A stretch of DNA of 64,000 nt, from contig NZ_CP107853.1 of the NCBI RefSeq assembly GCF_036013525.1, forward strand, positions 5,704,001-5,768,000, written 5' to 3'. The notes beneath the pieces were generated by a model. The model made no database searches. It was not told the DNA's origin and saw only the letters and a list, made by a program, of their open reading frames with translations. The translations under genes were made by a program, and so were the position numbers. The first letter of the stretch is position 1. Each line of letters opens with the position of its first letter. Below, piece by piece: positions 35,587 to 60,196 of this stretch. This DNA is from Nonomuraea sp. NBC_00507 (lineage in GTDB: Bacteria; Actinomycetota; Actinomycetes; Streptosporangiales; Streptosporangiaceae).

Positions 35587-35597
35587 CGTGGCGTTCC

Positions 35598-40501: not shown

Positions 40502-40515
40502 AGCCACCTCCGTTG

Positions 40516-40580
40516 TTGCGGAATATGCAACCCAAAGCGCTTTCCGCAACAAGCGTCGCTCGCCGGATTGCGGGTGTCAA
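40516..40580 (-). promoter_or_regulatory. Promoter/operator of the dimethylglycine oxidase operon
   Basis: On the minus strand: TTGACA (40580-40575), 17 bases, GACGCT (40557-40552), then two 15-bp sites 19 bp apart: TTGCGGAAAGCGCTT (40549-40535) and the palindrome TTGCATATTCCGCAA (40530-40516), which ends 14 bases before the ATG. The TTGAC box starts 50 bases before the proximal palindrome, as at purU and betB. Confidence 0.65.
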
Positions 40581-40623
40581 GGGGCGATCTGTCTAATTTC
40601 AGGCGGTGTCGCTGGACATGCGA

Positions 40624-40658
40624 ACCCGGCCCGACCGCGAAGCGCGATCGGGCCGGGT
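40624..40658 (-). terminator. Terminator after proX
   Basis: Perfect 11-bp inverted repeat (40624-40634 with 40648-40658) 12 bases beyond the proX stop. Separates the betB-proVWX unit from the dimethylglycine oxidase promoter. Confidence 0.75.
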
Positions 40659-40670
40659 CCGGCCGTGCCG

Positions 40671-41654
40671 TCAGCTCTTGGGGAGCCAGGCCTTGACCTT
40701 GTCCGCGTTGTCGGCCACCCACTTGGCGGCCGCCTCCTCGGCGGTCATCTTGTCCTCGGTGATGTACTTCGCCACGAGGTTCTGGTCGTCGTTGCCCCAG
40801 GTGAAGTTCTTGACCAGCTCGTAGGCAGGGCTGCCGGAGTCGGCGAACTTCTTGCTCACGATCTTGTCGAGCTCGTACGGCGGGTAGTCACAGGCCACCC
40901 TGGCGGCGTCGGCGTCGCAGCCGGCCGTGTAGGCGGGCAGGTTGACCTTGACCAGCTTGAGCTCCGACAGGAACCACTGCGGCTCATAGAAGTAACCGAT
41001 GAGCGGCGTCTGCTGCTTCTGCGACTGGCGGAAGGCCGTGATCAACGCGGTCTCGCTGCCCGCGTAGACGACCTTGAAGTCCAGCTTGAGGTTCTTGACC
41101 AGGGCCTCGTCGTTGGTGACGAAGGAGGGGTCACCGTCGAGGAGCTGGCCCTTGCCGCCGGACTCGGAGGTCTTGAACAGGGAGGCGTACTTGTTGAGGT
41201 TCTTCCAGTCGGTGATGTCCGGGTACTTCTCGGCCATCCACGGCGCCACGTACCAGCCGATGACGCCCTTGTTGCCCGTCGGCCCCGCGGAGACGGCGGT
41301 CTTCTGCTCGTCGATGTACTTCTTCTTCAGGTCGTCGTGGCCCCAGTTCTCCACGACCGCGTCGACCTCGCCGGTGCCGAAGCCCTGCCAGGCCACCTCC
41401 TCCTTGAGGTCCTTCTTCACGACCTTGCAGCCGAGGTTCTTCTCGGCCACATAGCCGATCACGGCGGCGTTGGCCTCGTACCCCACCCATGGGTTGATCG
41501 CGAGGCTCAGGGTCCCGCACGCCTTGGCGCTGCCGCTGCCGGCGGCGGGCGCGGCCGTCTCGCCGACCTTCGCACCCGCGCAGGCGTTCACCAGGAGGCC
41601 CATGCCGGCTACGAGCACGAGTGCCCTGATTCTTCTGCTTCTCGAATTCGTCAC
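40671..41654 (-). CDS. proX: Glycine betaine ABC transporter substrate-binding lipoprotein
   Basis: A 327-residue lipoprotein (lipobox VNAC, Cys25) of the OpuAC/ProX family. Aromatic residues of the quaternary-amine cage are visible in AINPWVGYEAN, VVENWGH, YFYEPQWFLSEL. It delivers betaine, choline or a similar compound to the fused permease upstream in the operon. GTG 41654 has AGGAGG ahead. Last gene of betB-proV-proW-proX. Confidence 0.9.
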   Translation of the reverse strand: MTNSRSRRIRALVLVAGMGLLVNACAGAKVGETAAPAAGSGSAKACGTLSLAINPWVGYEANAAVIGYVAEKNLGCKVVKKDLKEEVAWQGFGTGEVDAVVENWGHDDLKKKYIDEQKTAVSAGPTGNKGVIGWYVAPWMAEKYPDITDWKNLNKYASLFKTSESGGKGQLLDGDPSFVTNDEALVKNLKLDFKVVYAGSETALITAFRQSQKQQTPLIGYFYEPQWFLSELKLVKVNLPAYTAGCDADAARVACDYPPYELDKIVSKKFADSGSPAYELVKNFTWGNDDQNLVAKYITEDKMTAEEAAAKWVADNADKVKAWLPKS

Positions 41655-41700
41655 CTAGGTCCTCCTAGTGGTTCCCGGGCCGAGAGGGCCCGTCATCTGG

Positions 41701-43701
41701 CTATTGGTGCGGTTGCCCCCCGTGAGCGGCCGCGTCGGCGCGCTGCGTGGCAGCGCGCATGACACGGTCGAGCACGATGCCGAGCACGACGATCGCGAGC
41801 CCGGCGGCCAGCCCCTTCCCCCGGAGCTGGTGCTGCGAGAACCCGGCCACGACGTCGTAGCCGAGCGCTCCCGCTCCCACGAGGCCGCCCACGACGACCA
41901 TCGAGAGCACGTAGATGAGTCCCTGGCTCGCCGCGAGTGTCACGCCGCTGCGGGCCATCGGGAGCTGGACCTTGGAGATGAGCTGCCAGGCGTTCGCCCC
42001 CACCGAGGTGGCCGCCTCGACCGTGGTGGGGGAGACCCGCCTGATGCCCTCGGCGACCAGCTTGATCGCGACCGGCGCCGCGAAGACCACGGCGGCGATG
42101 ATCGCGGTGAACCGCGTCGGGCCGAACAGGCCGAGGATCGGCACCAGATAGACGAAGGCGGGCATGGTCTGCCCGGCGTCGAGCACGGGGCGCAGCACGG
42201 TGTCGGCCCGGTCGCTGCGGCCCATCCACACGCCCACCACCACGCCGAGCATCATGACGAGGATCGTGGCGACCAGGGTGGAGGCCAGCGTGACCATGCT
42301 GTCCTGCCAGAGCCCGAGCAGGACCAGCAGCGCCAGGCCGACCGCGGTCGCCAGGGCCGCGCGCGCGTTGCCCACCAGCAGCGCCACGGCCACGGCCACG
42401 GCGAACACCAGCCACCACGGAGACCCTGTCAGCAGCGACTCGAACGGGTTGAGCAGCCCGTTGGTGAGCAGGTTCTTGATCGCGTTGGTGAAGCCGACCA
42501 GGCTGTCCTGCACCCAGACGCTCGCCGCGTCGGCGGCGCGGCGCACGATGGGGCCGAGGTTGGCCTGCGCGGGGAACTCCGCCGCCCACACGTAGGTGTA
42601 CGACAGATAGCCGAGCACCGCCGTGACGCCGAGCACGCCCGCCACCTGCAGCCGCCGCCGTCCGGGAGTGAGCAGCCGGCCGGCCCTGCGCTCGGCCTCG
42701 ACCCGGCGGCTGGCCGCCGAGGTCACCCGGTCCAGCACCACCGCCATGATGACGATGGCCAGGCCCGCGTTGAACGCGGTGCCCACGTCCAGGGTCTGCA
42801 GCGCCTTCAACACCGTCTTGCCCAGGCCCGGCGCGTCGATGAGGGCCGCGATGGTGGCCATGGACAGGGCGGCCATGATGGTCTGGTTCACCCCGACGAT
42901 GATCGTCTGCTTGGCCATCGGCAGCCGCACGTGCCGCAGCGACTGAGCGGTGGTGGCGCCCAGCGAGGCGCCGGCTTCGAGGGTGTCCGGCGAGACCTGG
43001 CGGATGCCGTGCGCGGTGATGCGGATGGCCGGCGGGATCGCGTAGATCATCGTGGCGACCGTCGCGCTGGCCGGCCCGATGAGGAAGAAGAGCGTGAGCG
43101 GCGCCAGGTAGACGAACGTCGGCATCGTCTGCATGAAGTCCAGCACCGGGGTGACCAGCCGGTGGAAGCGGTCGCTCATCCCCGCCAGCACCCCGAGCGG
43201 GATGCCCACGGCCAGCGACAGCACCACCGCGGTGAGCGTGAGGGCGAGCGTGTCCATGCTCTCCTGCCACAGCCCGAGCAGCCCGAAGGAGATCAGGCCC
43301 GCCGCCGCGAGCAGCGCCGCCTTCCTGTTGGCATACAGGTACGTGACCGCGGTCGCCACGGCCGTCACGCCCAGCCAGCCCAGCACGGGGACCGGGCGGC
43401 CGAAGGACGGCTGGCTGATCAGCGCCTGGACGAACGTCACGGCCTCGTCGAGGAAGAGCCGGATGTAGTTGATGAAGTAGAGGAAGAACGGGTTGGTGTT
43501 CCTGCTGTCGTCGATGGCGTCCATGCCCTCGCTGAACGAGGTGTGCAGCGGCGTCAGCTCGGCCCCGCCGAGTGCCAGCGTGTCGCGCCCGTTCAGCAGC
43601 GCCCACCCCAGCACCCAGACCGCCAGCACCGCCACGATCAGGAGCCTGCGGCCGCGCAGCCGCGTGGCCACCGCCGTGACCGCGGCCGTCACCGGAGCCA
43701 T
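41701..43701 (-). CDS. proW: Fused tandem permease of a glycine betaine/choline ABC transporter
   Basis: A 666-residue membrane protein that contains two complete ProW/OpuAB-type permease domains. Each half has its own ATPase-docking loop, EAGASLGATTAQSLRHVRLP and EAATSVGANAWQLISKVQLP, and its own SMATIAALIDAPGLG / SMVVVGGLVGAGALG block. Normal ProW is a single domain working as a homodimer; here the dimer is one chain. ATG overlaps the proV stop by 1 bp (TGATG). Confidence 0.88.
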   Translation of the reverse strand: MAPVTAAVTAVATRLRGRRLLIVAVLAVWVLGWALLNGRDTLALGGAELTPLHTSFSEGMDAIDDSRNTNPFFLYFINYIRLFLDEAVTFVQALISQPSFGRPVPVLGWLGVTAVATAVTYLYANRKAALLAAAGLISFGLLGLWQESMDTLALTLTAVVLSLAVGIPLGVLAGMSDRFHRLVTPVLDFMQTMPTFVYLAPLTLFFLIGPASATVATMIYAIPPAIRITAHGIRQVSPDTLEAGASLGATTAQSLRHVRLPMAKQTIIVGVNQTIMAALSMATIAALIDAPGLGKTVLKALQTLDVGTAFNAGLAIVIMAVVLDRVTSAASRRVEAERRAGRLLTPGRRRLQVAGVLGVTAVLGYLSYTYVWAAEFPAQANLGPIVRRAADAASVWVQDSLVGFTNAIKNLLTNGLLNPFESLLTGSPWWLVFAVAVAVALLVGNARAALATAVGLALLVLLGLWQDSMVTLASTLVATILVMMLGVVVGVWMGRSDRADTVLRPVLDAGQTMPAFVYLVPILGLFGPTRFTAIIAAVVFAAPVAIKLVAEGIRRVSPTTVEAATSVGANAWQLISKVQLPMARSGVTLAASQGLIYVLSMVVVGGLVGAGALGYDVVAGFSQHQLRGKGLAAGLAIVVLGIVLDRVMRAATQRADAAAHGGQPHQ

Positions 43702-44759
43702 CAGGACTGCCCTCCCGCGATGACCTCGAGGATCTCGGCGCTGGTGACCACGCCCAGCAGGGCGCCGTCCCTGGTCACGCGGACCGGCCGGTCGGCCGAC
43801 ATCACGCTGTGCACCGCGTCCCGGATGACCACGTCGGGGCCCAGCTCGGGGCCGTCCAGGGGCTCGCCGGGCAGCGGGTCGCGCATGATCCAGCGCAGCG
43901 TCAGCACGTGGGAGCGCGCCACGTCGCTGACGAAGTCCCGTACGTAGTCGTCGGCCGGCGCGCCCACGACCTCGTCGGGCGTGCCCATCTGGACCAGCTC
44001 GCCGTCGCGCATGATGAGGATGCGGTCGCCCAGCTTGAGCGCCTCGCTCAAGTCGTGGGTGATGAAGATCATGGTCTTGCCGACCTCGTGGTGCAGGCGG
44101 ATGACCTCGTTCTGCATCTCGCGCCTGATCAGCGGGTCGAGCGCGGAGAACGGCTCGTCGAACAGCAGGACCTCGGGATCGGCGGCCAGCGCGCGGGCCA
44201 GGCCGACGCGCTGCTGCATGCCTCCGGAGAGCTGGTCGGGATAGGAGTTCTCGAAGCCGGTCAGGCCGACCAGCCCGACGACCTCGCGGGCCCTGACGTA
44301 GCGGTCCTGCTTGGGCACGCCGCGGATCTCCAGCCCGAAGACGACGTTGTCCAGCACGCACCGGTGCGGCAGCAGCCCGAAGTGCTGGAAGACCATGGCC
44401 ATGCGGTGCCTGCGCAGCTCCCGCAGCCGTTTCTCGTCGGCCTTGCGGACGTCGTCGCCGTCGAGCAGGATCTCGCCGGCCGTGGGCTCGATCAGCCTGG
44501 TGAGGCAGCGGACCAAGGTGGACTTGCCCGAGCCGGACAGGCCCATGACCACGAACACCTCGCCCCGGCGTACCGAGAAGGACACGTCGCGGACGGCGGC
44601 GACGCAGCCGGTCTGTTCCTTCAGTTCCGTGCGGCTGAGCGTGCTGCCGACGACGCGGTCGGCCTTGGGCCCGAACACCTTCCAGAGCCCCCTCACCTCG
44701 AGGATGGGGGGTGTCTCGGTGCCGAGCGGCGTGCGTTCGGTCAGTGACGGTACGGTCAT
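43701..44759 (-). CDS. proV: Glycine betaine/proline-type ABC transporter ATP-binding protein
   Basis: A 352-residue ATPase: Walker [10 protein letters not shown] (73-81), signature [15 protein letters not shown], Walker [13 protein letters not shown]. The FGPKADRV... N-terminal extension is typical of ProV/OpuAA, and the C-terminus (about 290-350) keeps CBS-like sequence ([26 protein letters not shown]) used for osmotic or ligand control. ATG 44759 with AAGAGGTGG ahead. Lies 23 bp after betB. Confidence 0.92.
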
Positions 44760-44782
44760 GACCACCTCTTGGTCGTCAGGCG

Positions 44783-46243
44783 TCAGTTCGCTGGGAACCA
44801 CCGCTGGGGGCGTGGGCGGATGTTCTGCCAGACATGCTTGATCTCGCGGTACTCGTCGAGACCGGTGGGCCCGAGCTCACGGCCGATGCCTGACTGCTTG
44901 AAGCCACCCCACTCGGCCTGCGGCACGTAGGGGTGGTAGTCGTTGATCCACACCGTGCCGTGCCGCAGCCGGCCCGCGACCCGCTGCGCCTTGCCGGCGT
45001 CCTGGGTCCAGACGGCGCCGGCCAGGCCGTACTCGGTGTCGTTGGCGAGGCGCACGGCCTCGTCCTCGGTGGTGAAGCGCTCCACGGTCAGCACGGGGCC
45101 GAAGGACTCCTCGCGCACCACGCGCATGCCCTGCTTGCACTCGTCGAGCACGGTGGGGCGGTAGAAGAAGCCGAGGCCCTCCCCGCGGCGGCCGCCGCAG
45201 CGCAGGACCGCGCCTTCGGCCAGGCCCGCCGCCACGTACTCCTCGACCTTGGCGAGGTGCGCGGCGGAGATCAGCGGGCCGGTGTGCGCGTCCGGGTCGA
45301 AGGGGCCGCCCAGGCGGATCAGCTCCGCGCGCCGGACGACCTCGTCCACGAAGGCGTCGTGCAGGGAGTCCTCCACGAGGAGGCGGGCGCCGGCCGAGCA
45401 GACCTGGCCCGAGTGCAGGAACACCGCGGTGAGCGCGAAGTCGATCGCGGTCTCGACGTCGGCGTCGGCGAAGACGATGTTGGGGTTCTTGCCGCCCAGT
45501 TCGAGCGCCACGCGTTTGACGGTGGGTGCGGCGGCCGCCATGATCCGGCGTCCCGTGGCCACGCCGCCGGTGAACGACACCAGGTCCACGGCCGGGTGCT
45601 CGGCCAGCGGCGCGCCCGCCTCGGGGCCCGCGCCGAGCACCAGGTTGGCGACGCCCGCAGGCAGGCCCGCCTCCTCCAGCGCACGCATCAGCAGGATCGA
45701 GGTGCTGGGTGTGAGCTCGCTGGGCTTCAGCACGAAGGTGTTGCCGGCGGCGAGCGCGGGGGCGACCTTCCACGTCGCCTGCAGCAGCGGATAGTTCCAC
45801 GGCGTGATCAGGGCGCAGACGCCGACGGGTTCGTGGACGATGCGGCTGATGGCGTCGTCCCGGCCGGTGTCGATCACCCGCCCGGCGTCGGTGCCCGCCA
45901 CCCCGGCGAAGTACCGCAGGGAGGCGATGGAGTCGTCGACGTCGTACTCGCTCTCCACGAGCCGTTTGCCGGTGTCGCCTGACTCGGCCTTCGCGAAGCT
46001 GTCGCGGTCGCGTTCCAGCAGGTCAGCTACCCTGTTCAGGAGTGCGCCCCGCTCGCGGGCGGGAGTCTGCGGCCAGGGGCCCGCGTCGAAGGCGTGCCGG
46101 GCGGCCTCGATCGCCCGCCCGGTGTCGGCCGCCGTGGCCTCCGCCACCGTGGCCACCAGACCACCGTCGGCGGGCGAGTGGATGTGCCGCAGGCCACCGG
46201 CGATCGGCCTCGTCCACGTTCCACCGATGTAGAGGTCGGTCAT
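44783..46243 (-). CDS. betB: Betaine-aldehyde dehydrogenase
   Basis: A 486-residue NAD(P)+ aldehyde dehydrogenase: catalytic Cys282 in SGQVCSAG and Glu248 in LELGGKNP. Very close to the BetB/GbsA pattern ([26 protein letters not shown]). Converts betaine aldehyde, made by the GMC enzyme at 47383, to glycine betaine. First gene of the unit betB-proVWX. ATG 46243 is chosen over an in-frame start at 46276, because that extension covers the operator. Confidence 0.9.
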
Positions 46244-46261
46244 CGGGCACATCCCTGATCG

Positions 46262-46326
46262 TTGCGCATGGCGCAAGCTTGTGCTTAATGGGGAACAGGA
46301 TTGACCGGCTGCTGGGGGTTCGTCAA
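46262..46326 (-). promoter_or_regulatory. Promoter/operator of betB-proVWX
   Basis: On the minus strand TTGACG (46326-46321) and, 50 bases on, the palindrome TTGCGCCATGCGCAA (46276-46262), 18 bases before the ATG. The distal companion site is weak here (TTCCCCATTAAGCAC, 46295-46281). Confidence 0.6.
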
Positions 46327-46400
46327 GGCCTTGAGGGAATCACTGACCGAAACTATGTGTTGTGATGGGTTTTGCCCGGCGTTGGATCACATTTCACCTC

Positions 46401-46465
46401 TTGACGGACGTGCTGCTCTGCGTTCACGCTGTTGCGTATAACTAACTCATTTGCGTAATACGCAA
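46401..46465 (+). promoter_or_regulatory. Promoter/operator of purU
   Basis: TTGACG (46401-46406), 18 bases, CACGCT (46425-46430), then TTGCGTATAACTAAC (46432-46446) and the perfect palindrome TTGCGTAATACGCAA (46451-46465), 14 bases before the ATG. The 17-mer TCACGCTGTTGCGTATA (46424-46440) is identical to one in the Rieske operon promoter at 56548-56564. Confidence 0.68.
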
Positions 46466-46479
46466 CACAAGGAGGAGCG

Positions 46480-47331
46480 ATGGCTCCTGGGCGCGAGTTC
46501 ATCCTCACCGTCTCCTGCGCCGACAAGCCGGGCATCGTCTACGCCGTGAGCAGCTTCCTCATCCAGCACGGCGGGAACATGCTGCAGAGCAAGCAGTTCA
46601 ACGACCGCAAGGGCGGCGGCTTCTTCATGCGCGTGCACTTCACCTCCCAGGACGCCCTGGAGGAGCTGCGCGAGGGGTTCGCCTACGTCGCGGCGTCCTG
46701 CCAGATGACCTGGCAGCTCAAGGACGCGGCCACCCCGACCCGTACGCTGATCATGGTGTCGAAGTTCGGTCACTGCATGAACGACCTGCTCTTCCGCCGC
46801 CAGGTCGGCGGCCTGAACATCGAGATCCCCGCGGTGGTCTCCAACCACCCGGACCTCGAGCCGCTGGCCGCCTCCTACGGCGTGCCCTTCCACCACGTCC
46901 CGGTGACGTCGGAGGGCAGGGCGGAGGCGGAGGCCAGGGTGCTGGAGCTGGTCGCCGAGTACGACGCGGACCTGGTGGTGCTCGCCCGCTACATGCAGAT
47001 CCTGTCGGACGACCTGTGCAAGCGGCTGGAGGGGCGGGCGATCAACATCCACCACTCCTTCCTGCCGGGGTTCAAGGGCGCCAAGCCGTACCACCAGGCG
47101 CACGAGCGCGGCGTGAAGCTCATCGGGGCGACCGCGCACTACGTGACGGCGGACCTGGACGAGGGGCCGATCATCGAGCAGGACGTCGCCAGGGTGGACC
47201 ACGAGCTGGACCCCGACGACCTGGTCGCCGTCGGCCGGGACGTCGAGGCCCAGGTGCTCGCCAGGGCGGTGAAGTGGCACAGCGAGCAGCGGGTGCTGCT
47301 CAACGGCGACCGCACGGTCGTCTTCCGCTGA
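46480..47331 (+). CDS. purU: Formyltetrahydrofolate deformylase
   Basis: A 283-residue enzyme: N-terminal ACT domain (SCADKPGIVYAVSSFL, 12-27) and C-terminal formyltransferase-fold domain with the catalytic Asn189 and His191 (INIHHSFLPGFKGAKPYHQA) and an Asp near 225-227. It hydrolyses 10-formyl-THF to THF and formate, freeing THF loaded with carbon from dimethylglycine and sarcosine oxidation. AAGGAGGAG precedes the ATG. Single gene, divergent from betB, with its own operator of the regulon. Confidence 0.92.
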   Translation: MAPGREFILTVSCADKPGIVYAVSSFLIQHGGNMLQSKQFNDRKGGGFFMRVHFTSQDALEELREGFAYVAASCQMTWQLKDAATPTRTLIMVSKFGHCMNDLLFRRQVGGLNIEIPAVVSNHPDLEPLAASYGVPFHHVPVTSEGRAEAEARVLELVAEYDADLVVLARYMQILSDDLCKRLEGRAINIHHSFLPGFKGAKPYHQAHERGVKLIGATAHYVTADLDEGPIIEQDVARVDHELDPDDLVAVGRDVEAQVLARAVKWHSEQRVLLNGDRTVVFR

Positions 47332-47346
47332 CATCGCCGGAGACGT

Positions 47347-47373
47347 GAGGCGGTGGGGATCCCCCACCGCCTC
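47347..47373. terminator. Bidirectional terminator between purU and betA
   Basis: Perfect 12-bp stem (47347-47358 with 47362-47373) with a 3-base loop, between two convergent stops. Confidence 0.8.
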
Positions 47374-47382
47374 TGTCGTCGT

Positions 47383-49020
47383 CTAGGAGCGGTGCCGGTA
47401 GAACTCGGCCGGCTCCGGCGGCAGCGGGGTGTTGCCGAGGATCAGGTCGGCCGCCTTCTCCGCCAGCATCATGACCGGCGCGTAGATGTTGCCGTTCGTG
47501 ACGTACGGCATGGCCGAGGCGTCCACCACCCGCAGCCCGTCCACGCCGTGCACGCGCATGCTCTCGGGGTCGAGCACGGACATCTCGTCCACGCCCATCC
47601 GGGCCGTGCAGGAGGGGTGCAGCGCCGTCTCGCCGTCCTTGGCCACCCAGTCCAGGATCTCCTCGTCGGTCTCGACAGAGGGCCCGGGGGACAGCTCGCC
47701 GGTGCTGTACGCGGCCAGCGCGGGCTGACCGAGGATGCTCCTGGCCACCCTGACGGCCTCCACCCACTCGCGCCGGTCCTGGTCGGTGGACAGGTAGTTG
47801 AACCGCAGGGCGGGATGCCGCCGCGGGTCGCCGCTCTTGATCTTCACGGAGCCGCGGGCGTCGGAGTACATGGGGCCGACGTGCACCTGGTAGCCGTGTC
47901 CGCCCGAGGGCGCGGAGCCGTCGTAGCGCACCGCGATCGGCAGGAAGTGGAACATGAGGTTCGGGTAGTCGACGTCGGCGTTGCTGCGCACGAAGCCGCC
48001 GGCCTCGAAGTGGTTGGTCGCGCCCGGCCCCTTGCGCAGGAACAGCCACTGGGCGCCGATCCAGGGGTGGCGCCACTTCTGCAGGTTCGGCTGCATCGAG
48101 ACGGGCTCGCCGCACCCGTGCTGGATGTAGACCTCCAGATGGTCCTGCAGGTTCTCGCCCACTCCCGGCAGGTGGTGCACAACGTCGACGCCGAGGGCGC
48201 GCAGCTCGTCGGCGTTGCCGACCCCGGACAGCTGGAGGAGTTGCGGCGAGTTGATCGCGCCGCCGCACAGGATGACCTCTCCCGCGCGCACCGTCCCGCC
48301 GTCGTACTCGACGCCGACGGCCCGCTTGCCCTCGAAGAGGATGCGCGTCACGAACGCCCGCGTCTTCACGGTGAGGTTCGGCCTCTTCATGACCGGGTGC
48401 AGGTACGCCCTGGCCGCGCTGAGCCTGCGGCCCCGCCGGATGTTGCGGTCGAAGCGGGCGAAGCCCTCCTGACGGTAGCCGTTGACGTCGTCGGTGAGCG
48501 GGTAGCCGGCCTGCTGCACGGCCTCGAAGAAGGCCGGGTAGAGCGGCGTGCTCGCCGGCCCCCGCTCCAGCGCCAGCGGGCCCTCGTGACCGCGCCAGGG
48601 GGTGCCGGGGTCGGCCAGGCAGTTCTCCATGCGCTTGAAGTAGGGCAGGCAGTGCGCGTAGTCCCAGGTCTTCATCCCGGGATCGGCGCCCCAGCGCTCG
48701 TAGTCGAGCGGGTTGCCGCGCTGGAAGATCATGCCATTGATGCTGCTCGAACCGCCCAGCACCTTCCCGCGCGCGTGGTAGATCCGTCGGCCCCGCATGT
48801 GCGGCTCAGGCTCGGACTCGTACCGCCAGTCGTAGAAGCGGTTGCCGATCGGGAAGGGGAGCGCCGCCGGCATGTGAATGAAGACGTCCCAGGGGTAGTC
48901 CGGCCGGCCCGCCTCCAGCACCAGCACGCGGGTGGCAGGGTCCGCGGAGAGCCGGTTGGCCAGGGCGCAGCCGGCCGAGCCGCCTCCGACGATGACGAAG
49001 TCGTACTGCTGTGACGTCAT
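47383..49020 (-). CDS. betA: Choline dehydrogenase (GMC oxidoreductase)
   Basis: A 545-residue FAD-dependent GMC enzyme. FAD site [16 protein letters not shown] near the start, GGSSSINGM signature, and the C-terminal block with the active-site His in HPSCTARMG and [12 protein letters not shown]. Oxidises choline to betaine aldehyde. ATG 49020 ([13 protein letters not shown]) is preferred; the frame extends to 49068 without a good site. Own transcription unit, divergent from the IclR gene across a 127-bp region that holds an operator. Confidence 0.88.
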
Positions 49021-49072
49021 GGTGCCTCGTCTCTCGCGCATTTCCGCGAATCGTAGCGTCATGTGCATTTCG

Positions 49073-49106
49073 TTGCACTACTCGCAACAGGAGATCTTTT
49101 CCGCAC
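49073..49106. promoter_or_regulatory. Operator in the betA/iclR divergent region
   Basis: GTTGC-ACTACTC-GCAAC (core 49073-49087), with a weaker companion 19 bp away (minus strand GTGCGGAAAAGATCT, 49106-49092). The TTGAC box seen at the other four units is absent; it lies between betA and iclR and could control both. Confidence 0.55.
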
Positions 49107-49147
49107 TTCAGCTCGCGTGAGTTCCTCACAGCACTTACAGTTTCGCT

Positions 49148-49921
49148 ATGAGCAACGACTCGGGTAGTGGGGGCGTGCAGTCGGTCGATCGGGCGATCAG
49201 CGTGCTCGAGATCCTCTCCCGCCGGGGCGAGGCCGGCGTCAGTGAGGTCGCCGCCGAGATCGACGTGCACAAGTCGACCGCGTTCCGGCTGCTCGGCGCC
49301 CTGGAAGCGCGCGGACTGGTCGAGCAGGCCGAGGACCGGGGCAAATACCGTCTCGGTTTCGGCATCATCCGCCTGGCCGGCGGCGTCAACACGCAGATGG
49401 ACCTCGGCCGGCGCAGCCATCCCGTCTGCCAGCGGCTGGCCGAGGAGATCGGTGAGACCGTGAACATCGCCGTCCTCCGCTCCTCCTACGCGGTCAACCT
49501 GGACCAGGTGCGCGGGCCGTCCGCCGTCACCGCCTACAACTGGGTCGGCCAGCTCACCCCCCTCCACGCGACCTCCAGCGGCAAGGTGCTCCTGGCTCAC
49601 CTGGAGGACAGGCAGCGGGCGAAGCTGCTGTCCGAGGGGCCGCTGGAGGCCCTGACCGGCCGGACCATCACCGACGTGGCCGAGCTGGAGAAGCAGCTCG
49701 CCGAGATCAGGAAGACGGGCTACGCCTACTGTCTGGAGGAGCTGGAGGACGGGCTCAACACCATTGCCGCGCCCATCCGCTCCTACCACGGGGACGTCGT
49801 GGCCGCGGTCAGCGCCTCCGGCCCCGCTTACCGCTTCCCCGCCGAGCGCATGCACGAGCTCGCCTCCGTCCTCATCACAGGGGCCGATGAGATCAGCGGG
49901 CGGCTCGGCTACGCGGGCTAG
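49148..49921 (+). CDS. IclR-family transcriptional regulator
   Basis: A 257-residue regulator: N-terminal winged HTH (SEVAAEIDVHKSTAFRLLGALEARGLV) and C-terminal IclR effector domain (TPLHATSSGKVLLAHL, GYAYCLEELEDGLNTIAAPI, AAVSASGP). It is the only regulator gene inside the betaine region and so the best candidate to bind the TTGC-N7-GCAA palindromes; IclR proteins bind short palindromes, often as paired dimers. TACAGT (49136-49141) precedes the ATG by 6 bases (leaderless type). Its 3' end overlaps the molybdoenzyme gene by 29 bp tail to tail. Confidence 0.88.
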   Translation: MSNDSGSGGVQSVDRAISVLEILSRRGEAGVSEVAAEIDVHKSTAFRLLGALEARGLVEQAEDRGKYRLGFGIIRLAGGVNTQMDLGRRSHPVCQRLAEEIGETVNIAVLRSSYAVNLDQVRGPSAVTAYNWVGQLTPLHATSSGKVLLAHLEDRQRAKLLSEGPLEALTGRTITDVAELEKQLAEIRKTGYAYCLEELEDGLNTIAAPIRSYHGDVVAAVSASGPAYRFPAERMHELASVLITGADEISGRLGYAG

Positions 49922-52136
49922 ACCGCGCCAGCCGCACCACCACGCTCTTCGACGTCGGGGTGTTGGACGTCTCGGCCACCGAGTCCAGCGGCACCAGCAC
50001 GTTGGTCTCGGGGAAGTAGGCCGCGCAGCAGCCGCGCGCCGTCGGATAGGCGATCACCCTGAAGCCCTTCGCCTTGCGCTCGCCGTCCGGCCACTCGCTG
50101 ATCAGGTCCACCACGTCGCCGTCGGCCAGGTCGCGCTCCGCCAGGTCGTCGGGGTGCACGAAGAGCACGCGGCGGCCCGCCTTGACCCCGCGGTAGCGGT
50201 CGTCCAGGCCGTAGATCGTGGTGTTGTACTGGTCGTGGCTGCGGACCGTCTGCAGCAGCAGCCGTCCCGGCGGCACCCGCAGCACCTCCAGCCGGTTGAC
50301 GGTGAAGTTCGCCCTGCCGGTCGCGGTGGGGAAGCGGCGTTCGTCCCTGGGGGCGTTGGGCAGCGCGAAGCCGGCCTCGGCCCGCGCGTTGAAGTCCGCG
50401 AACCCGGGGATCACCCGGGCGATGCGGTCCCTGACCGCGCCGTAGTCGCGCTCGAACTCGGCCCACGGCACGTGCGGGTCGTCGCCGAACAGCTCGCGGG
50501 CCAGCCCGCACACGATGGCCGTCTCCGACAGCAGGCCGGGCGCGGCGGGCCCGAGCCTGCCCCTCGAGGCGTGGACCAGGCCCATCGAGTCCTCCACCGT
50601 CACGTATCCCGCGGCATCGCGCTCGGTGCGGCCCAGCGCGGGCAGGATGAGCGCCCGCTCGCCGCACACGGCGTGCGAGCGGTTGAGCTTGGTGGACACC
50701 TGCACGGTCAGCCGGGTACGGCGCAGCGCCGCCTCGGTGACCTCGCTGTCGGGCGTCGCCCTGACGAAGTTGCCGCCCATCCCGAAGAACACCTTGACCG
50801 CGCCGTCGCGCATCGCGCGGATGGCCTCCACGGTGTCCAGCCCGTGCCGGCGCGGCGGGGCGAAGCCGAACTCCGCCTCCAGCGCGTCCAGGAAGTCCGC
50901 AGGCGGCTTCTCGTAGATCCCCATGGTGCGGTCGCCCTGCACGTTGGAGTGGCCGCGCACCGGGCAGACGCCCGCCCCCGGCCGGCCGACGTTGCCGCGC
51001 AGCAGCAGGAAGTTGACCACCTCCCTGATCGTCGCCACGGAGTTGCGGTGCTGGGTCAGGCCCATGGCCCAGCACACGACGACCGAACGCGCGCCGCGGA
51101 CCTCCCCGGCGGTCTCCTCCAGCTCGGCCCTGGACAGCCCGGTCGCCTCCAGCACCTCCGCCCAGTCGAGGGCGGCCAGGTGCCGCTCCCACTCCGCGAA
51201 GCCGTGCGTGTGCTCCTCGATGAACTCCCTGTCGGCCGAGTCGAGCAGGAGCAGCGACAGCGCCTGGAAGAGCGCCATGTCGCCGTTGAGGCGGATCTGC
51301 AGGAAGCGGTCGGCGAGCGCGGTGCCCGAGGCTAGCCCCGAGGGCCGTTGCGGGTTCTTGAACCGCAGCAGCCCGGCCTCCGGCAGCGGGTTGACCGCGA
51401 TGATCCGCGCCCCGCCGCGCTTGGCCCGCTCCAGGGCGCTCAGCATGCGCGGGTGGTTGGTGCCGGGGTTCTGCCCCACGACGAAGATCAGCTCGGCGCG
51501 GTGCAGATCCTCCAGCGTGACGGTGCCCTTGCCGATGCCCAGCGTCTCGGTGAGCGCCGAGCCGCTGGACTCGTGGCACATGTTGGAGCAGTCGGGCAGG
51601 TTGTTGGTGCCGAAGCGGCGCACGAGAAGCTGGTAGGCGAAGGCCGCCTCGTTGGAGGTGCGGCCGGAGGTGTAGAACACGGCCTCGTCAGGGCCTTCGA
51701 GGGCACGTAGCTCCTCGGCGACGATCCGGAACGCCTCCGCCCAGCCGATGGGCCGGTAGCGGTCCGAGCCCGCGTCCTTGTACAGGGGCTCGGTGAGCCT
51801 GCCCTGCTGCCCCAGCCAGTAGTCGCTCATCGTCGCCAGCTCGCCGACCGGGTGGTCGGCGAAGAAGCCGGCGCTCAGCCGCCGCGTCGTGGCCTCCTCG
51901 GCGACCGCCTTGGCGCCGTTCTCACAGAACTCCGCCGGGCTGCGGTGCTCGCCTTCCGGCCAGGCGCAGCCCGGGCAGTCGAATCCGCTCTTCTGGTTGA
52001 CCCGCAGCAGGGTGAGGACGGTGCGGCGGGCGCCCATCTGCTCGTACGCCATCCGCATGGCGTGTCCCACCGCGGGCAGCCCGCCCGCCCAGTCCTTGGG
52101 CGGGCCGACCCGGAGTCCCTCGTCCTCGTCCGCCAT
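49893..52136 (-). CDS. FdhF/YdeP-family molybdopterin oxidoreductase (formate dehydrogenase alpha-like)
   Basis: A 747-residue molybdoenzyme. Cys54, Cys57 and Cys71 (FDCPGCAWPEG ... FCENG) are near the N-terminus; DCSNMCHESSG, GMGGNFVRATPD and the C-terminal QYNTTIYGLDDRYRG are hallmarks of the YdeP/FdhF subgroup. In this operon, which releases formaldehyde, formate oxidation to CO2 is the likely job, although the family's substrate is not firmly established. No FdhD-type maturation gene is in the window. Last gene of the Rieske operon, 3 bp after the oxygenase gene. Confidence 0.83.
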   Translation of the reverse strand: MADEDEGLRVGPPKDWAGGLPAVGHAMRMAYEQMGARRTVLTLLRVNQKSGFDCPGCAWPEGEHRSPAEFCENGAKAVAEEATTRRLSAGFFADHPVGELATMSDYWLGQQGRLTEPLYKDAGSDRYRPIGWAEAFRIVAEELRALEGPDEAVFYTSGRTSNEAAFAYQLLVRRFGTNNLPDCSNMCHESSGSALTETLGIGKGTVTLEDLHRAELIFVVGQNPGTNHPRMLSALERAKRGGARIIAVNPLPEAGLLRFKNPQRPSGLASGTALADRFLQIRLNGDMALFQALSLLLLDSADREFIEEHTHGFAEWERHLAALDWAEVLEATGLSRAELEETAGEVRGARSVVVCWAMGLTQHRNSVATIREVVNFLLLRGNVGRPGAGVCPVRGHSNVQGDRTMGIYEKPPADFLDALEAEFGFAPPRRHGLDTVEAIRAMRDGAVKVFFGMGGNFVRATPDSEVTEAALRRTRLTVQVSTKLNRSHAVCGERALILPALGRTERDAAGYVTVEDSMGLVHASRGRLGPAAPGLLSETAIVCGLARELFGDDPHVPWAEFERDYGAVRDRIARVIPGFADFNARAEAGFALPNAPRDERRFPTATGRANFTVNRLEVLRVPPGRLLLQTVRSHDQYNTTIYGLDDRYRGVKAGRRVLFVHPDDLAERDLADGDVVDLISEWPDGERKAKGFRVIAYPTARGCCAAYFPETNVLVPLDSVAETSNTPTSKSVVVRLARSSPRSRAAR

Positions 52137-52139
52137 CGC

Positions 52140-53246
52140 TCAGCCGATCCGTTCCTGAACCCACTCATGGAAGGCGCCGATGTGGTGCTCACTCGGTACC
52201 AGCACGCCGCCCTTGGCGTAGGTGCGCGAGCTCATACGCGGCTGGGTGCGCTCGCACGCCTCGAAGTCCTGCTCGTTGACGCGGTGGAAGAGCTCGACCG
52301 ACTTGTCCAGGTCCTTGCCGCTCGCCACCACGCCGGGCAGGTAGAGCCAGTCGCACTCGACCACCGTGCGGTCGACGGCCATAGGGAACATCCGGTGCAC
52401 GATCACGTGGTCGGGCACCAGGTTCACGAAGACCTGCGGTTTGATGGTGATCGCGTAGTAGCGCCTGTCCTGGTCGTCGTTCACCCCGGGGATGCGGTCG
52501 AGCCCGGCGGACCCGTCGATGGTGAAGCCCTTGATCTCCTCGCCGAACTCTGCGCCGTGGCCGACGAAGTATTGCGCCGCGTAGCCGTCGGCGAACTCGG
52601 GCAGCACCTCGGTCAGCTCAGGGTGGATGGTCGCGCAGTGGTAGCACTCCATGAAGTTCTCGATGATGAGCTTCCAGTTGGCCTGGACGTCGTACACGAT
52701 GCGCCGCCCGACCTCGAGGTTCGGCACGTCGTAGTTGTCGATCAGCTCCAGCGCTCCGAGTCGCTCGGTGACCGCGCCCAGCACGTCGGCCTCGAAGGAG
52801 GGCGGATCGTCGGCCAGGCAGACCCACACGTAGCCGAGCCACTCGCGCACGTGCACCTTGACCAGGCCATACTCGACCCGGTCCAGGTCGGCCATCTTGG
52901 TCAGGTTGGGTGCGGCGATGAGCTTGCCGTCCAGGTCGTACGTCCACGCGTGGTAGGGGCACTGGAACGCCCGCTTGACCTCGCCGGACTCCTCGGTGCG
53001 GATGGTGGCGCCGCGATGGCGGCAGACGTTGTAGAACGCGCGCACCGACCCGTTCCTCGCCCTGGTGACGAGGATGCTCTCGGTGCCGACCTGCACGGTC
53101 TTGAAGGCTCCCGGCTTGCCCAGATCGGACGAGCGCACCACGCAGAACCACATCGACTCGAAGATGTTCTTCTGCTCAAGGGCGAAGATCTCGGGGTCGA
53201 CGTAGTAGCGGCCGGGGAGGGTGGGGATCACGCTTGACGTGGTCAC
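52140..53246 (-). CDS. gbcA: Rieske-type glycine betaine monooxygenase, oxygenase component
   Basis: A 368-residue Rieske non-heme iron oxygenase. The 2Fe-2S ligands are Cys75, His77, Cys96 and His99 (CRHRGAT ... CPYHAWTY); the mononuclear iron site lies in ENFMECYHCATIHPEL with His203 and His208. N-demethylates glycine betaine to dimethylglycine plus formaldehyde by context, since the downstream pathway from dimethylglycine is all present; stachydrine or carnitine-type amines are alternatives. GTG 53246 with ACAGGAGT ahead. Confidence 0.85.
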   Translation of the reverse strand: MTTSSVIPTLPGRYYVDPEIFALEQKNIFESMWFCVVRSSDLGKPGAFKTVQVGTESILVTRARNGSVRAFYNVCRHRGATIRTEESGEVKRAFQCPYHAWTYDLDGKLIAAPNLTKMADLDRVEYGLVKVHVREWLGYVWVCLADDPPSFEADVLGAVTERLGALELIDNYDVPNLEVGRRIVYDVQANWKLIIENFMECYHCATIHPELTEVLPEFADGYAAQYFVGHGAEFGEEIKGFTIDGSAGLDRIPGVNDDQDRRYYAITIKPQVFVNLVPDHVIVHRMFPMAVDRTVVECDWLYLPGVVASGKDLDKSVELFHRVNEQDFEACERTQPRMSSRTYAKGGVLVPSEHHIGAFHEWVQERIG

Positions 53247-53273
53247 GTGAGTACTCCTGTGGGGTGGGCCGGG

Positions 53274-53897
53274 TCAGTGTCCTCGGCGGATCCAGTCCTC
53301 GAGCTGCGGAGCCTCGGCTCCGATGGTGGTGTCGTCACCGTGCCCGGTGTGCACCACCGTCTCACCGGGCAGGGTGAGGAGCGTCGTGCTGATCGACTTG
53401 ATGATCGTCGGAAAGTCGCTGTACGACCTGCCGGTGGCGCCGGGGCCGCCGTGGAAGAGGGTGTCCCCGGAGAACAGCACCCCCAGCTCGGGCACGTAGA
53501 GGCAGACCGCGCCGGGGGCGTGCCCCGGAGTGTGCAGCACGTGCACGGCCGAGCCGCCGACGCGCAGGATCTGCCCGCCCGCCAGCGCCCGGTCCGGCGT
53601 GGCCGCAGGGTGCGTCAGCTTCCACAGCACCTCGTCGTCGGGGTGCAGCAGGACGGGCGCGCCGGTACGGGCGGCCAGGTCGGGTGCGGCGTTCACGTGG
53701 TCGTCGTGCGCGTGCGTGCACACGATCCCCGCGACCCGGCGGTCGCCGATCGCCTCGGCGACGGCGGCGGCGTCGTGGGCGGGGTCGATCACCAGCACCT
53801 GGTCGCCGTCGCCCAGCAGCCAGACGTTGTTGTCGACCTCCCAGGTGCCCCCGTCCAGGCTGAACGTGCCCGAGGTGACCAGATGCTCGACGCGCAT
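53274..53897 (-). CDS. MBL-fold hydrolase, probable S-formylmycothiol-related thioesterase
   Basis: A 207-residue metallo-beta-lactamase-fold protein with THAHDDH (His62, His64, Asp66, His67) and later GHAPG and GDTLF metal motifs, like glyoxalase II. It overlaps the start region of the adjacent mycothiol-dependent formaldehyde dehydrogenase, an arrangement also known for Rv2259-Rv2260 in Mycobacterium tuberculosis. Hydrolysis of S-formylmycothiol to formate is the inferred role. Confidence 0.82.
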   Translation of the reverse strand: MRVEHLVTSGTFSLDGGTWEVDNNVWLLGDGDQVLVIDPAHDAAAVAEAIGDRRVAGIVCTHAHDDHVNAAPDLAARTGAPVLLHPDDEVLWKLTHPAATPDRALAGGQILRVGGSAVHVLHTPGHAPGAVCLYVPELGVLFSGDTLFHGGPGATGRSYSDFPTIIKSISTTLLTLPGETVVHTGHGDDTTIGAEAPQLEDWIRRGH

Positions 53898-54982
53898 TAG
53901 AGCACCACCACCGAGCGCAGCACGTCGCCGTGGTGCATCTTGGCGAAGGCCTCCTCGACGCCGTCCAGGCCGATGGTCTCGGTGACGAAGGCGTCCAGGT
54001 CGAAGCGGCCCTGCAGGTAGAGGGAGATCAGCAGGGGGAAGTCGCGGCTGGGCAGGCAGTCGCCATACCAGCTGGACTTGAGCGCCCCGCCGCGGCCGAA
54101 CACGTCCAGGAGCGGCAGCTCAAGGGTCATTTCCGGAGTGGGCACGCCCACGAGCACCGCGGTGCCCGCCAGGTCGCGCGCGTAGAACGCCTGCTTGAAC
54201 GTCTCGGGCCGGCCCACGGCGTCGATCACCACGTCGGCGCCGTTCCCGCCGGTGAGCTCCCTGATCGCCTCGACCGGGTCGGCCTCCTTGGCGTTCACCG
54301 TGTGCGTGGCGCCGAAGCCGCGCGCCCACTCCAGCTTCCTGCCGTCCACGTCCACCGCGATGATCGTGGTGGCGCCGACCAGCCGCGCTCCGGCGATCGC
54401 CGCGTTGCCGACGCCGCCGCAGCCGATGACCGCGACCGAGTCGCCGCGGCTGACCGCGCCGGTGTTGACCGCCGCGCCGAGCCCCGCCATCACACCGCAG
54501 CCGAGCAGGCCGGCCGCCGCGGGGGAGGCGGCCGGATCGACCTTGGTGCACTGGCCCGCGGCCACCAGCGTCTTCTCGGCGAACGCGCCGATGCCGAGCG
54601 CCGGGCTCAGCGGGGTGCCGTCGGCCAGCGTCATCTTCTGCGTGGCGTTGTGCGTGTTGAAGCAGTATTGCGGCCGCCCGCGCAGGCACGACCGGCACGA
54701 CCCGCACACCGCGCGCCAGTTGAGGATGACGAAGTCGCCGGGCGCGACGTCGGTGACGCCGTCGCCGACGGACTCCACCACGCCGGACGCCTCGTGGCCG
54801 AGCAGGAACGGGAAGTCGTCGCTGATGCCGCCCTCACGGTAGTGCAGGTCCGTGTGGCAGACGCCGCAGGCGAGCACCTTCACCAGCGCTTCGCCGGGGC
54901 CAGGGTCGGGGACGAGGATCGTCTCCAGGCCGACCGGCTTGCCCTTGCCCGTCGCGACCACGCCGCGTACTTCATGAGCCAT
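53897..54982 (-). CDS. mscR: S-(hydroxymethyl)mycothiol dehydrogenase
   Basis: A 361-residue zinc alcohol dehydrogenase whose length and sequence fit the mycothiol-dependent formaldehyde dehydrogenase MscR. Catalytic zinc ligands Cys39 and His63 (GHEASG); structural zinc cysteines in [18 protein letters not shown] site [10 protein letters not shown]. It oxidises the formaldehyde-mycothiol adduct. In the Rieske operon its substrate would be formaldehyde set free by betaine demethylation. Shares 1 bp with the MBL gene. Confidence 0.88.
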
Positions 54983-54997
54983 TGATTCACTCCTGTT

Positions 54998-56158
54998 TCA
55001 GACCGCGGTCTCCAACTGGCGGCGCCAGCGGGAGAAGAGGCGGACCTGGTTGACACCCAGCACGGCCACCGGCCGCTCACCCTGCCGGTAGACGGCGAGG
55101 AAGCTGTGATCGGCCGGGTCGCCCTCCTCCACCACGACCGTGTCGGCGTGGCGGGCGTGCCCGACGAACTGGATCTTCACATCGAACTGGTCGGACCAGA
55201 TGTAGGCCGGCCGTGGCCGCGCGGGCCGGGCGGCGCCGCCCGACAGCAGCGTCTCCGCCGCCACCGCGGCCCGCAGGCGCGCGCCGGTCCAGTGCTCGCA
55301 CCGCTCGTGCCTGCCGAGCGCCGGATCGAACCAGGCCGCGCAGTCGCCGACCGCGACGATGCCCGGCATCAGGGTGCCGCCACCCGCGTCGCAGATCACT
55401 CCGTCGCCCAGTCGCAGGCCGCTGTTCTCGAGCCAGGCGATGTTGGGCACCGCGCCGATCCCGACGACGACCACGTCCGCGGGCAGCAGGGTGCCGTCGG
55501 CCAGTCGTACCCCGTCGACCCGGGTCACGCCCGTCAGCGCCGTCACCCTCGCGCCGCGCAGCAGCCGGACGCCGCGCCGCTCGTGGAGAGCGGCGATGGC
55601 CTCGGCCATCTGGACTCCGACCACGCCGGCCAGCGGGATCTTCCCCGCCTCCACGAGCGTGACCTCCAGGCCCAGGGCACAGGCCGTCGCGGCGACCTCG
55701 GTGCCGATGAAACCGCCGCCGATGACGACGACCCGCTTCGCGCTCGCCAGGTCGTGGCGCAGCGCGCGGGCGTCGTCCAACGTCCGCAGGGTGTGCACCC
55801 CCGCCAGGCTCTCCGTGCCGGGAAGCCGGCGGGCCGAGGCTCCGGTGGCGATGACGATGCCGTCCGCCTCGACGTGCGTGCCGTCGCTCAGCGTGACGCG
55901 ACGGGCGGCGGCGTCCAGGCCGGTGGCGGCCACACCGAGCCGCCACTCGGCCGCCAGCTCCTCGCCGTCGGCTTCCAGGGCCAGGTCCGACTCGTCCAGG
56001 ACGCCTTTGAGGAAGTCCTTGGACAGAGGGGGACGGTCGTAGGGGCGGTGGAGCTCCTCGCCGACGAGGACCAGGCGGCCGTCGTAGCCCTGGGCGCGCA
56101 GCGCGCGGGCGGTCAGCAGCCCGGCGAGCGAGGCGCCGACGACGCAGACGCTTCTCAC
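54998..56158 (-). CDS. FAD-dependent ferredoxin reductase of the Rieske system
   Basis: A 386-residue reductase of the glutathione-reductase-like type used by three-component oxygenases. FAD site VVGASLAGLLTARAL (from 5), PYDRPPLSK, NAD(P)H site VVIGGGFIGTE, and second FAD motif GIVAVGDCA. It passes electrons from NAD(P)H to the ferredoxin encoded just upstream, whose stop overlaps its GTG start (GTGA at 56155-56158). The longer frame to 56329 runs through the ferredoxin gene. Confidence 0.88.
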   Translation of the reverse strand: MRSVCVVGASLAGLLTARALRAQGYDGRLVLVGEELHRPYDRPPLSKDFLKGVLDESDLALEADGEELAAEWRLGVAATGLDAAARRVTLSDGTHVEADGIVIATGASARRLPGTESLAGVHTLRTLDDARALRHDLASAKRVVVIGGGFIGTEVAATACALGLEVTLVEAGKIPLAGVVGVQMAEAIAALHERRGVRLLRGARVTALTGVTRVDGVRLADGTLLPADVVVVGIGAVPNIAWLENSGLRLGDGVICDAGGGTLMPGIVAVGDCAAWFDPALGRHERCEHWTGARLRAAVAAETLLSGGAARPARPRPAYIWSDQFDVKIQFVGHARHADTVVVEEGDPADHSFLAVYRQGERPVAVLGVNQVRLFSRWRRQLETAV

Positions 56159-56505
56159 GCCTGCCCCTTCAAGGCGACGCCGGGAGGCAGGTTGGGCGGC
56201 GCGTCGGACGGCACGACGTAGACGACGTCGTCCTCGACCACCACGCGGTGTGTGCGGACGGGGCGCTTGGCAGGCGGCGCGTCGACCTTGCCGGTCCTGA
56301 GGTCGAAGCGTGAGGCGTGCAGGGGGCACTCGATCTCGCAGCCCTCCAGCCAGCCGTCGGCCAGCGAGGCGTCCTGGTGGGTGCAGGTGTCGTCGATGGC
56401 GTAGATCTCGCCGTCCTCGGTGTGGAACACCGCGATGGGCGGATCGGCCTCGACCCGCAAGGCCTCACCTCGCGGCAGTGACGCCAGAGGGCACGCTGGA
56501 ATCAT
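56155..56505 (-). CDS. Rieske-type 2Fe-2S ferredoxin
   Basis: A 116-residue ferredoxin with Rieske ligands Cys41, His43, Cys60 and His63 (CTHQDASL ... CPLHASRFD). It carries electrons from the FAD reductase to the oxygenase GbcA. First gene of the six-gene operon ferredoxin-reductase-mscR-MBL-gbcA-fdhF. ATG 56505 is chosen; the frame upstream to 56541 overlaps the operator. Confidence 0.9.
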   Translation of the reverse strand: MIPACPLASLPRGEALRVEADPPIAVFHTEDGEIYAIDDTCTHQDASLADGWLEGCEIECPLHASRFDLRTGKVDAPPAKRPVRTHRVVVEDDVVYVVPSDAPPNLPPGVALKGQA

Positions 56506-56520
56506 CGAGTCACACCCCGG

Positions 56521-56584
56521 TTTCGCAAAGAGAAACGTCAAGCGCTATACGCAACAGCGTGAGGGTGCGGAATTCAGATGTCAA
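56521..56584 (-). promoter_or_regulatory. Promoter/operator of the Rieske betaine monooxygenase operon
   Basis: On the minus strand: TTGACA (56584-56579), 17 bases, CACGCT (56561-56556), then TTGCGTATAGCGCTT (56554-56540) and, 19 bp on, TTTCTCTTTGCGAAA (56535-56521), 15 bases before the ATG. The proximal site is a palindrome with TTTC/GAAA arms in place of TTGC/GCAA. Confidence 0.62.
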
Positions 56585-60121: not shown

Positions 60122-60196
60122 GGAGCAAACCCTAACGCTCCACCCTCCGCGCTTTAGCTGCGTCACATGGGTTTTACGTATTCATGGCGCCGATGA

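Follow-up and report, generated by a model that had tools for sequence, protein, structure and literature searches.

Candidate tandem operators of an IclR-family regulator at the betaine catabolism genes of Nonomuraea

Choline and betaine occur in soil as abundant osmolytes and as sources of carbon and nitrogen. Here we describe palindromes at the choline and betaine catabolism genes in a 64,000-nucleotide stretch of the soil actinomycete Nonomuraea sp. NBC_00507 (contig NZ_CP107853.1, positions 5,704,001 to 5,768,000 of the forward strand; hereafter the window, whose first letter is position 1). We think it quite likely that the IclR-family protein whose gene (iclR) lies at 49148–49921 uses these palindromes as operators, that they are paired at five operons, and that through them this protein would repress betaine catabolism. 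Each of the five operons would carry two 17-base-pair (bp) sites of the GTTGCG-N5-CGCAAC type with centres 19 bp apart, one of them often degenerate. Related genomes have the same pairs, which are therefore very probably bound by the IclR-type regulator encoded nearby. Sequence comparison shows that the sites exist, how they are spaced, that they are conserved and that they go together with this regulator.

Palindromes and promoter elements at five operons

An earlier reading of the window (the original prediction) had placed a palindrome near the first start of each transcription unit of the betaine region, and there we found it. Exact TTGC-N7-GCAA occurs in the whole window only at 40516, 46262, 46451 and 49073, before dmgO, betB, purU and betA, respectively (0.34 copies expected; 0 of 100 shuffles reached four), and the operon headed by a Rieske-type ferredoxin gene (the Rieske operon) has a variant form, TTTCGCAAAGAGAAA, at 56521–56535. 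The four exact copies fall within 8,572 bases (Poisson P of about 1e-8, for a region picked after the fact). When the pattern was relaxed to TTKC-N7-GMAA, the window held 7 sites where 0.63 were expected, including the Rieske site, one at the start of iclR and one at 478, well away from the betaine cluster.

We compared these promoters across the genus Nonomuraea in the GTDB sense (54 genomes, own included), in which 19 genomes, the window's own and 18 syntenic relatives, form the cluster set. The original prediction had proposed such a comparison, and the operators, their 19-bp spacing and the TTGAC distance all proved conserved in the 19 cluster genomes. Second sites were sought at offsets from -45 to +45 around the best site with a matrix trained on exact palindromes only. 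In this free-offset test the best secondary offset was -19 at dmgO, betB and purU; for betA and the ferredoxin gene it was +19, and in these two places the upstream member of the pair scores better. At betB, 11 of the 19 sequences were usable, the other 8 stretches having the purU palindrome as their best site; at the ferredoxin gene 16 of 19 scored above the cut, the window's own sequence falling below it; and the betA and iclR sets are one shared divergent region.

In the window, the putative proximal operator of dmgO (GTTGCATATTCCGCAAC, 40515–40531, reverse strand), the best site in 19/19 cluster genomes, is followed 19 bp upstream by the putative distal operator GTTGCGGAAAGCGCTTT (40534–40550; 90% column conservation). 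At betB, also on the reverse strand, the putative proximal operator CTTGCGCCATGCGCAAC (46261–46277) is an exact palindrome and the putative distal one, GTTCCCCATTAAGCACA (46280–46296), is degenerate, with -19 as its top offset and 88% conservation against 55% in the spacer. Upstream of purU, on the forward strand, the putative distal and proximal operators are GTTGCGTATAACTAACT (46431–46447) and TTTGCGTAATACGCAAC (46450–46466), the latter again exact, and those of the Rieske operon, on the reverse strand, are GTTGCGTATAGCGCTTG (56539–56555) and GTTTCTCTTTGCGAAAC (56520–56536). In the divergent region between betA and iclR, the putative strong operator of betA is an exact palindrome (GTTGCGAGTAGTGCAAC, 49072–49088, reverse strand), and its putative partner AATGCACATGACGCTAC (49053–49069, top offset +19), which is nearer the consensus in several relatives (AATGCGTATAACGCTAC), lies 19 bp downstream. 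The second sites proposed originally at purU, dmgO and the Rieske operon thus stand, the one at betB had been missed, and the one at betA exists but lies downstream of the strong site, not upstream of it.

A TTGAC element, read here as the -35 element, precedes the proximal palindrome by 50 bases at dmgO (40576–40580, reverse strand), betB (46322–46326, reverse strand) and purU (46401–46405, forward strand) and by 49 at the Rieske operon (56580–56584, reverse strand), which upholds the earlier claim of TTGAC(A/G) 49–50 bases ahead at four units. This distance is kept in 19/19 genomes each at dmgO, betB and purU, and likewise in 19/19 at the Rieske operon when reckoned from the distal site. The claim of one fixed layout holds for four of six units only, as betA and iclR have no TTGAC. 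At dmgO, purU and betB the putative -10 hexamers are weak (e.g., CACGCT, GACGCT, CAATCC) and stand 17–18 bp past the -35, with the distal site directly after them; since the distal site abuts the -10-like hexamer, it should cover the transcription start. The 17-mer said to be shared by purU and the Rieske operon is indeed identical at both (TCACGCTGTTGCGTATA) and, read by eye, consists of the putative -10 and the first half of the distal operator.

Among the 18 relatives, column conservation at dmgO, purU and betB was 92–94% in the proximal site, 88–90% in the distal site and 45–60% in the 55 bases upstream, with promoter spacers at 87% (dmgO), 52% (purU) and 55% (betB). Other stretches of the same genome, 114 kb in all, held one 19-bp pair.

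Genome-wide, the exact motif is no commoner than its backwards version, our control for pattern counts (36 copies in 12,893,232 bases against 71), and the signal therefore lies in its placement and clustering. Flanks were inspected for 28 of the 32 exact palindromes outside the cluster in this genome; many fall within predicted genes, and at none of the 28 did the opening residues of neighbouring reading frames point to a recognisable betaine-related gene. The original prediction was to fall if the motif were equally common at unrelated genes: the bare palindrome shows no excess, but TTGAC joined to the palindrome, the scan it had proposed, is concentrated as expected, with 70 matches in the 54 genomes, 54 of them in the betaine cluster of the 19 genomes, against 9 for the control. 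The tandem pattern gave 60 matches across the genus (19 at purU, 28 at gbmO, the Rieske oxygenase gene, and 13 scattered) against 38 backwards. The bare genome-wide count is what repeats arising by chance or from base composition would give, but local clustering, conservation in synteny, recurrence at unlinked orthologs and a spacing fixed sharply at 19 bp, with nothing at the control offsets (see below), speak against such an artefact, to which we allow practically no probability; in our reading, conservation and spacing have refuted it already.

The neighbouring regulator and its relatives

The iclR gene (49148–49921, forward strand), placed between betA and the 3′ end of the Rieske operon, encodes the proposed binder, a protein of 257 amino acids that matches both domains of the family, HTH_IclR at 54.7 bits (cut-off 22) and IclR_C at 148.3 bits (cut-off 24), and has 1mkm as a relative in the PDB (E 1.5e-30). 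Its best NCBIfam match is BhcR (NF045644), with a score of 190.8 bits, far below the cut-off of 350 and so short of a BhcR equivalog; its Pfam matches include no AraC-type helix-turn-helix domain, which sets it apart from the GbdR type. Centred on its start codon is a probable single auto-regulatory site, GTTTCGCTATGAGCAAC (49140–49156, forward strand; TTKC-N7-GMAA core at 49141–49155), with five of eight symmetric pairs and no visible partner at 19 bp. The five operons originally counted stand, and this is a further likely site. The gene itself looks leaderless (49130–49150): TACAGT spans -12 to -7, and the ATG is not preceded by an evident ribosome-binding site. TANNNT-like stretches occupy a similar place in many regulator genes of the diverged group described next.

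Exactly one regulator match (E <= 1e-60) was found in 53 of the 54 genus genomes. In 19 genomes, own included, the regulator is 81–100% identical and sits inside the betaine cluster; in 34 it is 58–64% identical and located elsewhere. In the regulator tree the 34 displaced genes branch together, separately from the betaine-linked ones; support for the branch is weak (86/87), but one change was found in 100% of 200 bootstrap trees, at a point where the program warned of long branches meeting. The loci of the 34 displaced genes (L064–L097) carry aceB and glcD in 30/34 and glcF in 33/34, the iclR gene in most cases coming after the malate synthase gene, glcD, glcF and another IclR gene. Beside the displaced regulators we found no operator above the score cut at aceB, glcD or glcF, and these neighbours are probably uninformative on function. 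An exact palindrome is centred on the regulator's own start codon in 33 of the 34, and the 34th has one mismatch; the right half of this palindrome is partly fixed by coding because it spans the codons M-S/G-N.

The betaine genes of these genomes also carry the pairs. Both gbmO and dmgO are unlinked in 35 genomes that lack the cluster (the 34 plus G033, which is incomplete). The best 19-bp pair lies just before the start of gbmO in 35/35, and dmgO likewise has a 19-bp pair in 35/35, with TTGTT- or TTGTC-like elements in place of TTGAC; in the free-offset test -19 was best for both unlinked sets.

Among the 16 matches to TTGAC plus palindrome outside the cluster, one is the gbmO of G025 and another stands just before a G039 gene for a phosphocholine-specific phospholipase C (above the cut-off of TIGR03396), which suggests that a choline-releasing enzyme was recruited in one genome. 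This palindrome is TTGCGCTATACGCAA (L099:4333–4347, G039:C3) and adjoins a gene resembling a 2-aminoethylphosphonate aminotransferase. As a general target we rejected the phospholipase: the enzyme occurs in just 2 of the 54 genomes (E <= 1e-100), and the two copies in G024 have no site within 300 bases upstream, so that this target rests on one genome. Matches at aldehyde dehydrogenase genes in G028 and G049 (L101, L102) were set aside for their different palindrome core. In G044 a tandem-like site (L100:4308–4322, G044:C12) precedes an MHS-family transporter gene that has an IclR gene of its own nearby.

The coupling extends beyond Nonomuraea. Among the best 80 of the regulator matches listed, betA or gbmO adjoins the regulator at 78 loci, through Streptosporangiaceae and Streptomyces, and one or more sites scoring over 15 occur at 77. 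Outside the genus, the 19-bp offset was best for seven of eight gene sets (dmgO, betB, purU, betA, ferredoxin, gbmO and iclR; 17 of the 59 gbmO sequences scored above the cut), and the eighth, fdr, yielded no sites. In a sample of 246 actinomycete genomes, gbmO (E <= 1e-110) was present in 30, all 30 of which had a regulator match (E <= 1e-60), as did 13 of the 216 without gbmO (Fisher 1e-28, for genomes that are not independent). Twenty stretches from 18 more distant genomes contained 23 pairs at 19 bp, in 14 stretches, and zero pairs at the control offsets 15–18 and 20–23.

With 93 first-look IclR-like candidates in its own genome, although one alone is a full match at E <= 1e-60, the palindromes might in principle be bound by a different, unlinked regulator to which the iclR gene is merely a neighbour. 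We consider this very improbable, given the operator on the start codon of the diverged regulators, the strict co-occurrence of gbmO with the regulator, the IclR-type motif and spacing, and a recognition helix, VHKSTAFRLL, common to both groups except for A45V in 1/82 rows and F46S in 5/34 rows. The original prediction of a single betaine regulon under IclR control, with paired dimers and presumed repression, finds support well outside the window, and the choice of the IclR protein as the best candidate binder is thus strengthened, as judged from the start-codon palindromes (33/34), the pairs at unlinked gbmO and dmgO (35/35 each) and the joint presence of gbmO and regulator (30/30).

Proposed repression and the genes it would cover

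We infer binding, a tetramer, repression and an inducer. At four operons the distal site would span the point where transcription begins, with the proximal one immediately ahead of the ribosome-binding site; one dimer per site, probably joined to its neighbour as a tetramer, would block initiation at dmgO-glyA-sox, betB-transporter, purU, betA and the ferredoxin-Rieske operon. The single site on the iclR start codon would let the regulator control its own gene, and a metabolite of the choline/betaine pathway would release the repressor.

Because the sites lie at or after the transcription start, repression is the natural reading. The same protein could instead bind these sites and act mainly as an activator or dual regulator in need of a betaine metabolite, much as BhcR, according to passages of PMC11323563, activates in vivo though glyoxylate weakens its binding in vitro; the pair at betA appears to overlap the promoter core or to sit upstream of it, a position from which activation can be imagined. 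At dmgO, betB, purU, the Rieske operon and unlinked gbmO, however, the sites are downstream of the TTGAC and -10-like elements, in the position of a repressor, and we regard activation as unlikely. Nor do the pocket residues support glyoxylate, suggested by analogy with BhcR and IclR, as the effector. The equivalents of E. coli G160, A161, D212, S239 and S241 are S143, S144, C195, S222 and S224 in the window protein, so that three of the five oxygen-binding positions are changed (G160S, A161S, D212C), unlike the glyoxylate-binding IclR/AllR type. The first three positions are S, S and T/C/S/A in 83 + 34 rows, and all 117 rows compared, own included, have tryptophan at the position of window residue 132.

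Several observations weigh against repression through paired operators. The matrix behind the scores was derived from cluster palindromes and the genomes are akin, so the counts are not independent, and the score of the distal half is zero or less in 3/35 unlinked gbmO and below zero in 6/35 unlinked dmgO sequences. In the window the distal consensus on its own is at chance level (2 found, 1.65 expected); we rejected it as a stand-alone signal, and the evidence for the distal site is therefore its fixed position and conservation, to which the 87% conservation of the dmgO promoter spacer itself is a caution. The start-codon site in the regulator's own group has just 4–5 of 8 symmetric pairs, and at least 5 are reached by 6% of random 17-mers; outside Nonomuraea a start-codon palindrome of at least 6 pairs occurs at 6/65 loci, and such palindromes are not general among regulator loci. 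At position 4 the half-site reads G, against Y in the published group-1 consensus. Some of the class-wide regulator matches are just 43–52% identical and may not be orthologs, an exact palindrome lies within about 1.5 kb at only 8 of 29 gbmO loci (own excluded; 0.7 expected), and 6 of the 20 distant stretches (L333, L338–L341, L349) have no 19-bp pair.

Repression by the IclR protein being still our preferred reading, we can sketch a wider one, which we hold tentatively and as possible rather than probable. In it, the protein would be a general repressor of choline and glycine-betaine catabolism in actinomycetes, from Nonomuraea to Streptomyces and beyond, with two mutually exclusive lineages in Nonomuraea, one in the betaine cluster and one elsewhere, mostly at a malate synthase/glycolate oxidase locus, from where it would control scattered betaine genes in trans. 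While the regulator changed in location and sequence, the geometry of the paired operators would have stayed fixed; new targets could be recruited (phospholipase C, in one genome), and the pocket, in which one tryptophan is invariant, may respond to a methylated ammonium compound and not to glyoxylate.

Profile matches on the window proteins indicate that the region encodes a near-complete route from choline to serine and pyruvate. On the reverse strand, dmgO (38096–40501; Pfam DAO, FAO_M, GCV_T and GCV_T_C), for a dimethylglycine oxidase-like protein, opens the demethylation operon and is followed by the serine hydroxymethyltransferase gene glyA (36827–38083; Pfam SHMT) and, 3′ of these, by soxB, soxA, soxG and an L-serine ammonia-lyase gene (30611–36755; TIGR01373, TIGR01372 and TIGR00720 above cut-off, TIGR01375 just below), with which dmgO-glyA is probably co-transcribed, judged by gene order. 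The best match of betB, for betaine-aldehyde dehydrogenase (44783–46243, reverse strand), is TIGR01804, with 594.7 bits against a cut-off of 668.6, and the choline/betaine ATP-binding cassette transporter genes 3′ of it, for an ATPase, a permease and a binding protein (40671–44801, reverse strand; TIGR01186 and TIGR03416 above cut-off, Pfam OpuAC), are probably transcribed with it. The formyltetrahydrofolate deformylase gene purU (46480–47331) lies on the forward strand (TIGR00655 above cut-off) and the choline dehydrogenase gene betA (47383–49020) on the reverse (TIGR01810 above cut-off).

The Rieske operon, also on the reverse strand, begins with the ferredoxin gene (56155–56505; NF007422 above cut-off) and continues with genes for a reductase, a mycothiol-dependent formaldehyde dehydrogenase, an MBL hydrolase, a GbcA-like Rieske oxygenase (gbmO) and an FdhF-like oxidoreductase (49893–56150; TIGR03451 and TIGR01701 above cut-off). 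The best match of gbmO is the GbcA model NF058607, far below its cut-off (222.8 against 670). A scan for RNA families over 36–58 kb of the window found none. Near the cluster, at 57878–60166, a protein has SulP-type transporter and carbonic anhydrase-like matches, both below curated cut-offs.

Relation to known systems

GbdR of Pseudomonas is an activator of betaine catabolism; it has the metabolic role proposed here for the window regulator but is an unrelated protein of the AraC family. In open full-text papers, judged mostly by title and abstract and with subscription journals and supplements outside the scope, we found no description of this regulon and, by title or abstract, no regulator of choline or betaine breakdown in actinomycetes; the word betaine is likewise absent from the main text of the survey PMC8222616. 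The operator set yields a prediction that can be tested directly in Streptomyces, which is easy to grow. The regulator is also a case in which gene neighbourhood would mislead, as the regulator is mostly beside glycolate genes in 34 genomes and the operator pairs are at unlinked betaine genes.

Among the glyoxylate-responsive regulators BhcR, IclR and AllR, as described in passages of PMC11323563, we find the same domain layout as in the window regulator, and the diverged Nonomuraea group resembles BhcR in lying mostly near glycolate/glyoxylate genes; the window regulator differs in that its proposed targets are betaine genes and its pocket is altered at three of five oxygen-binding residues. 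A similar site is that of TphR of Comamonas, a terephthalate regulator whose site TTTTTGCGCATAGCGCAAAAA contains TTGCG-N5-CGCAA (PMC8222616, Table 1), although TphR serves another pathway in another phylum and is likened here by its site alone.

According to the main text of PMC8222616, the GTT-11-AAC subgroup of IclR-family group 1 has 17-bp palindromes, with tandem sites 18–22 nucleotides apart that are explained by tetramers; sites in the family peak near -22 and at -3 to +1, i.e., at the start codon, and the group-1 operator consensus is GKTYCRYW3-4RYGRAMC. Our matrix consensus, GTTGCGTAATACGCAAC, fits the latter by eye except at two symmetric Y/R positions, which here are G/C. The group-1 regulons of Suvorova and Gelfand (2021), as far as that main text describes them, share with the sites described here the 17-bp palindrome, the tandem spacing (19 nucleotides, at five operons) and the site positions near -22 and at the start codon, and the present system would add a regulon to a known IclR-family kind.

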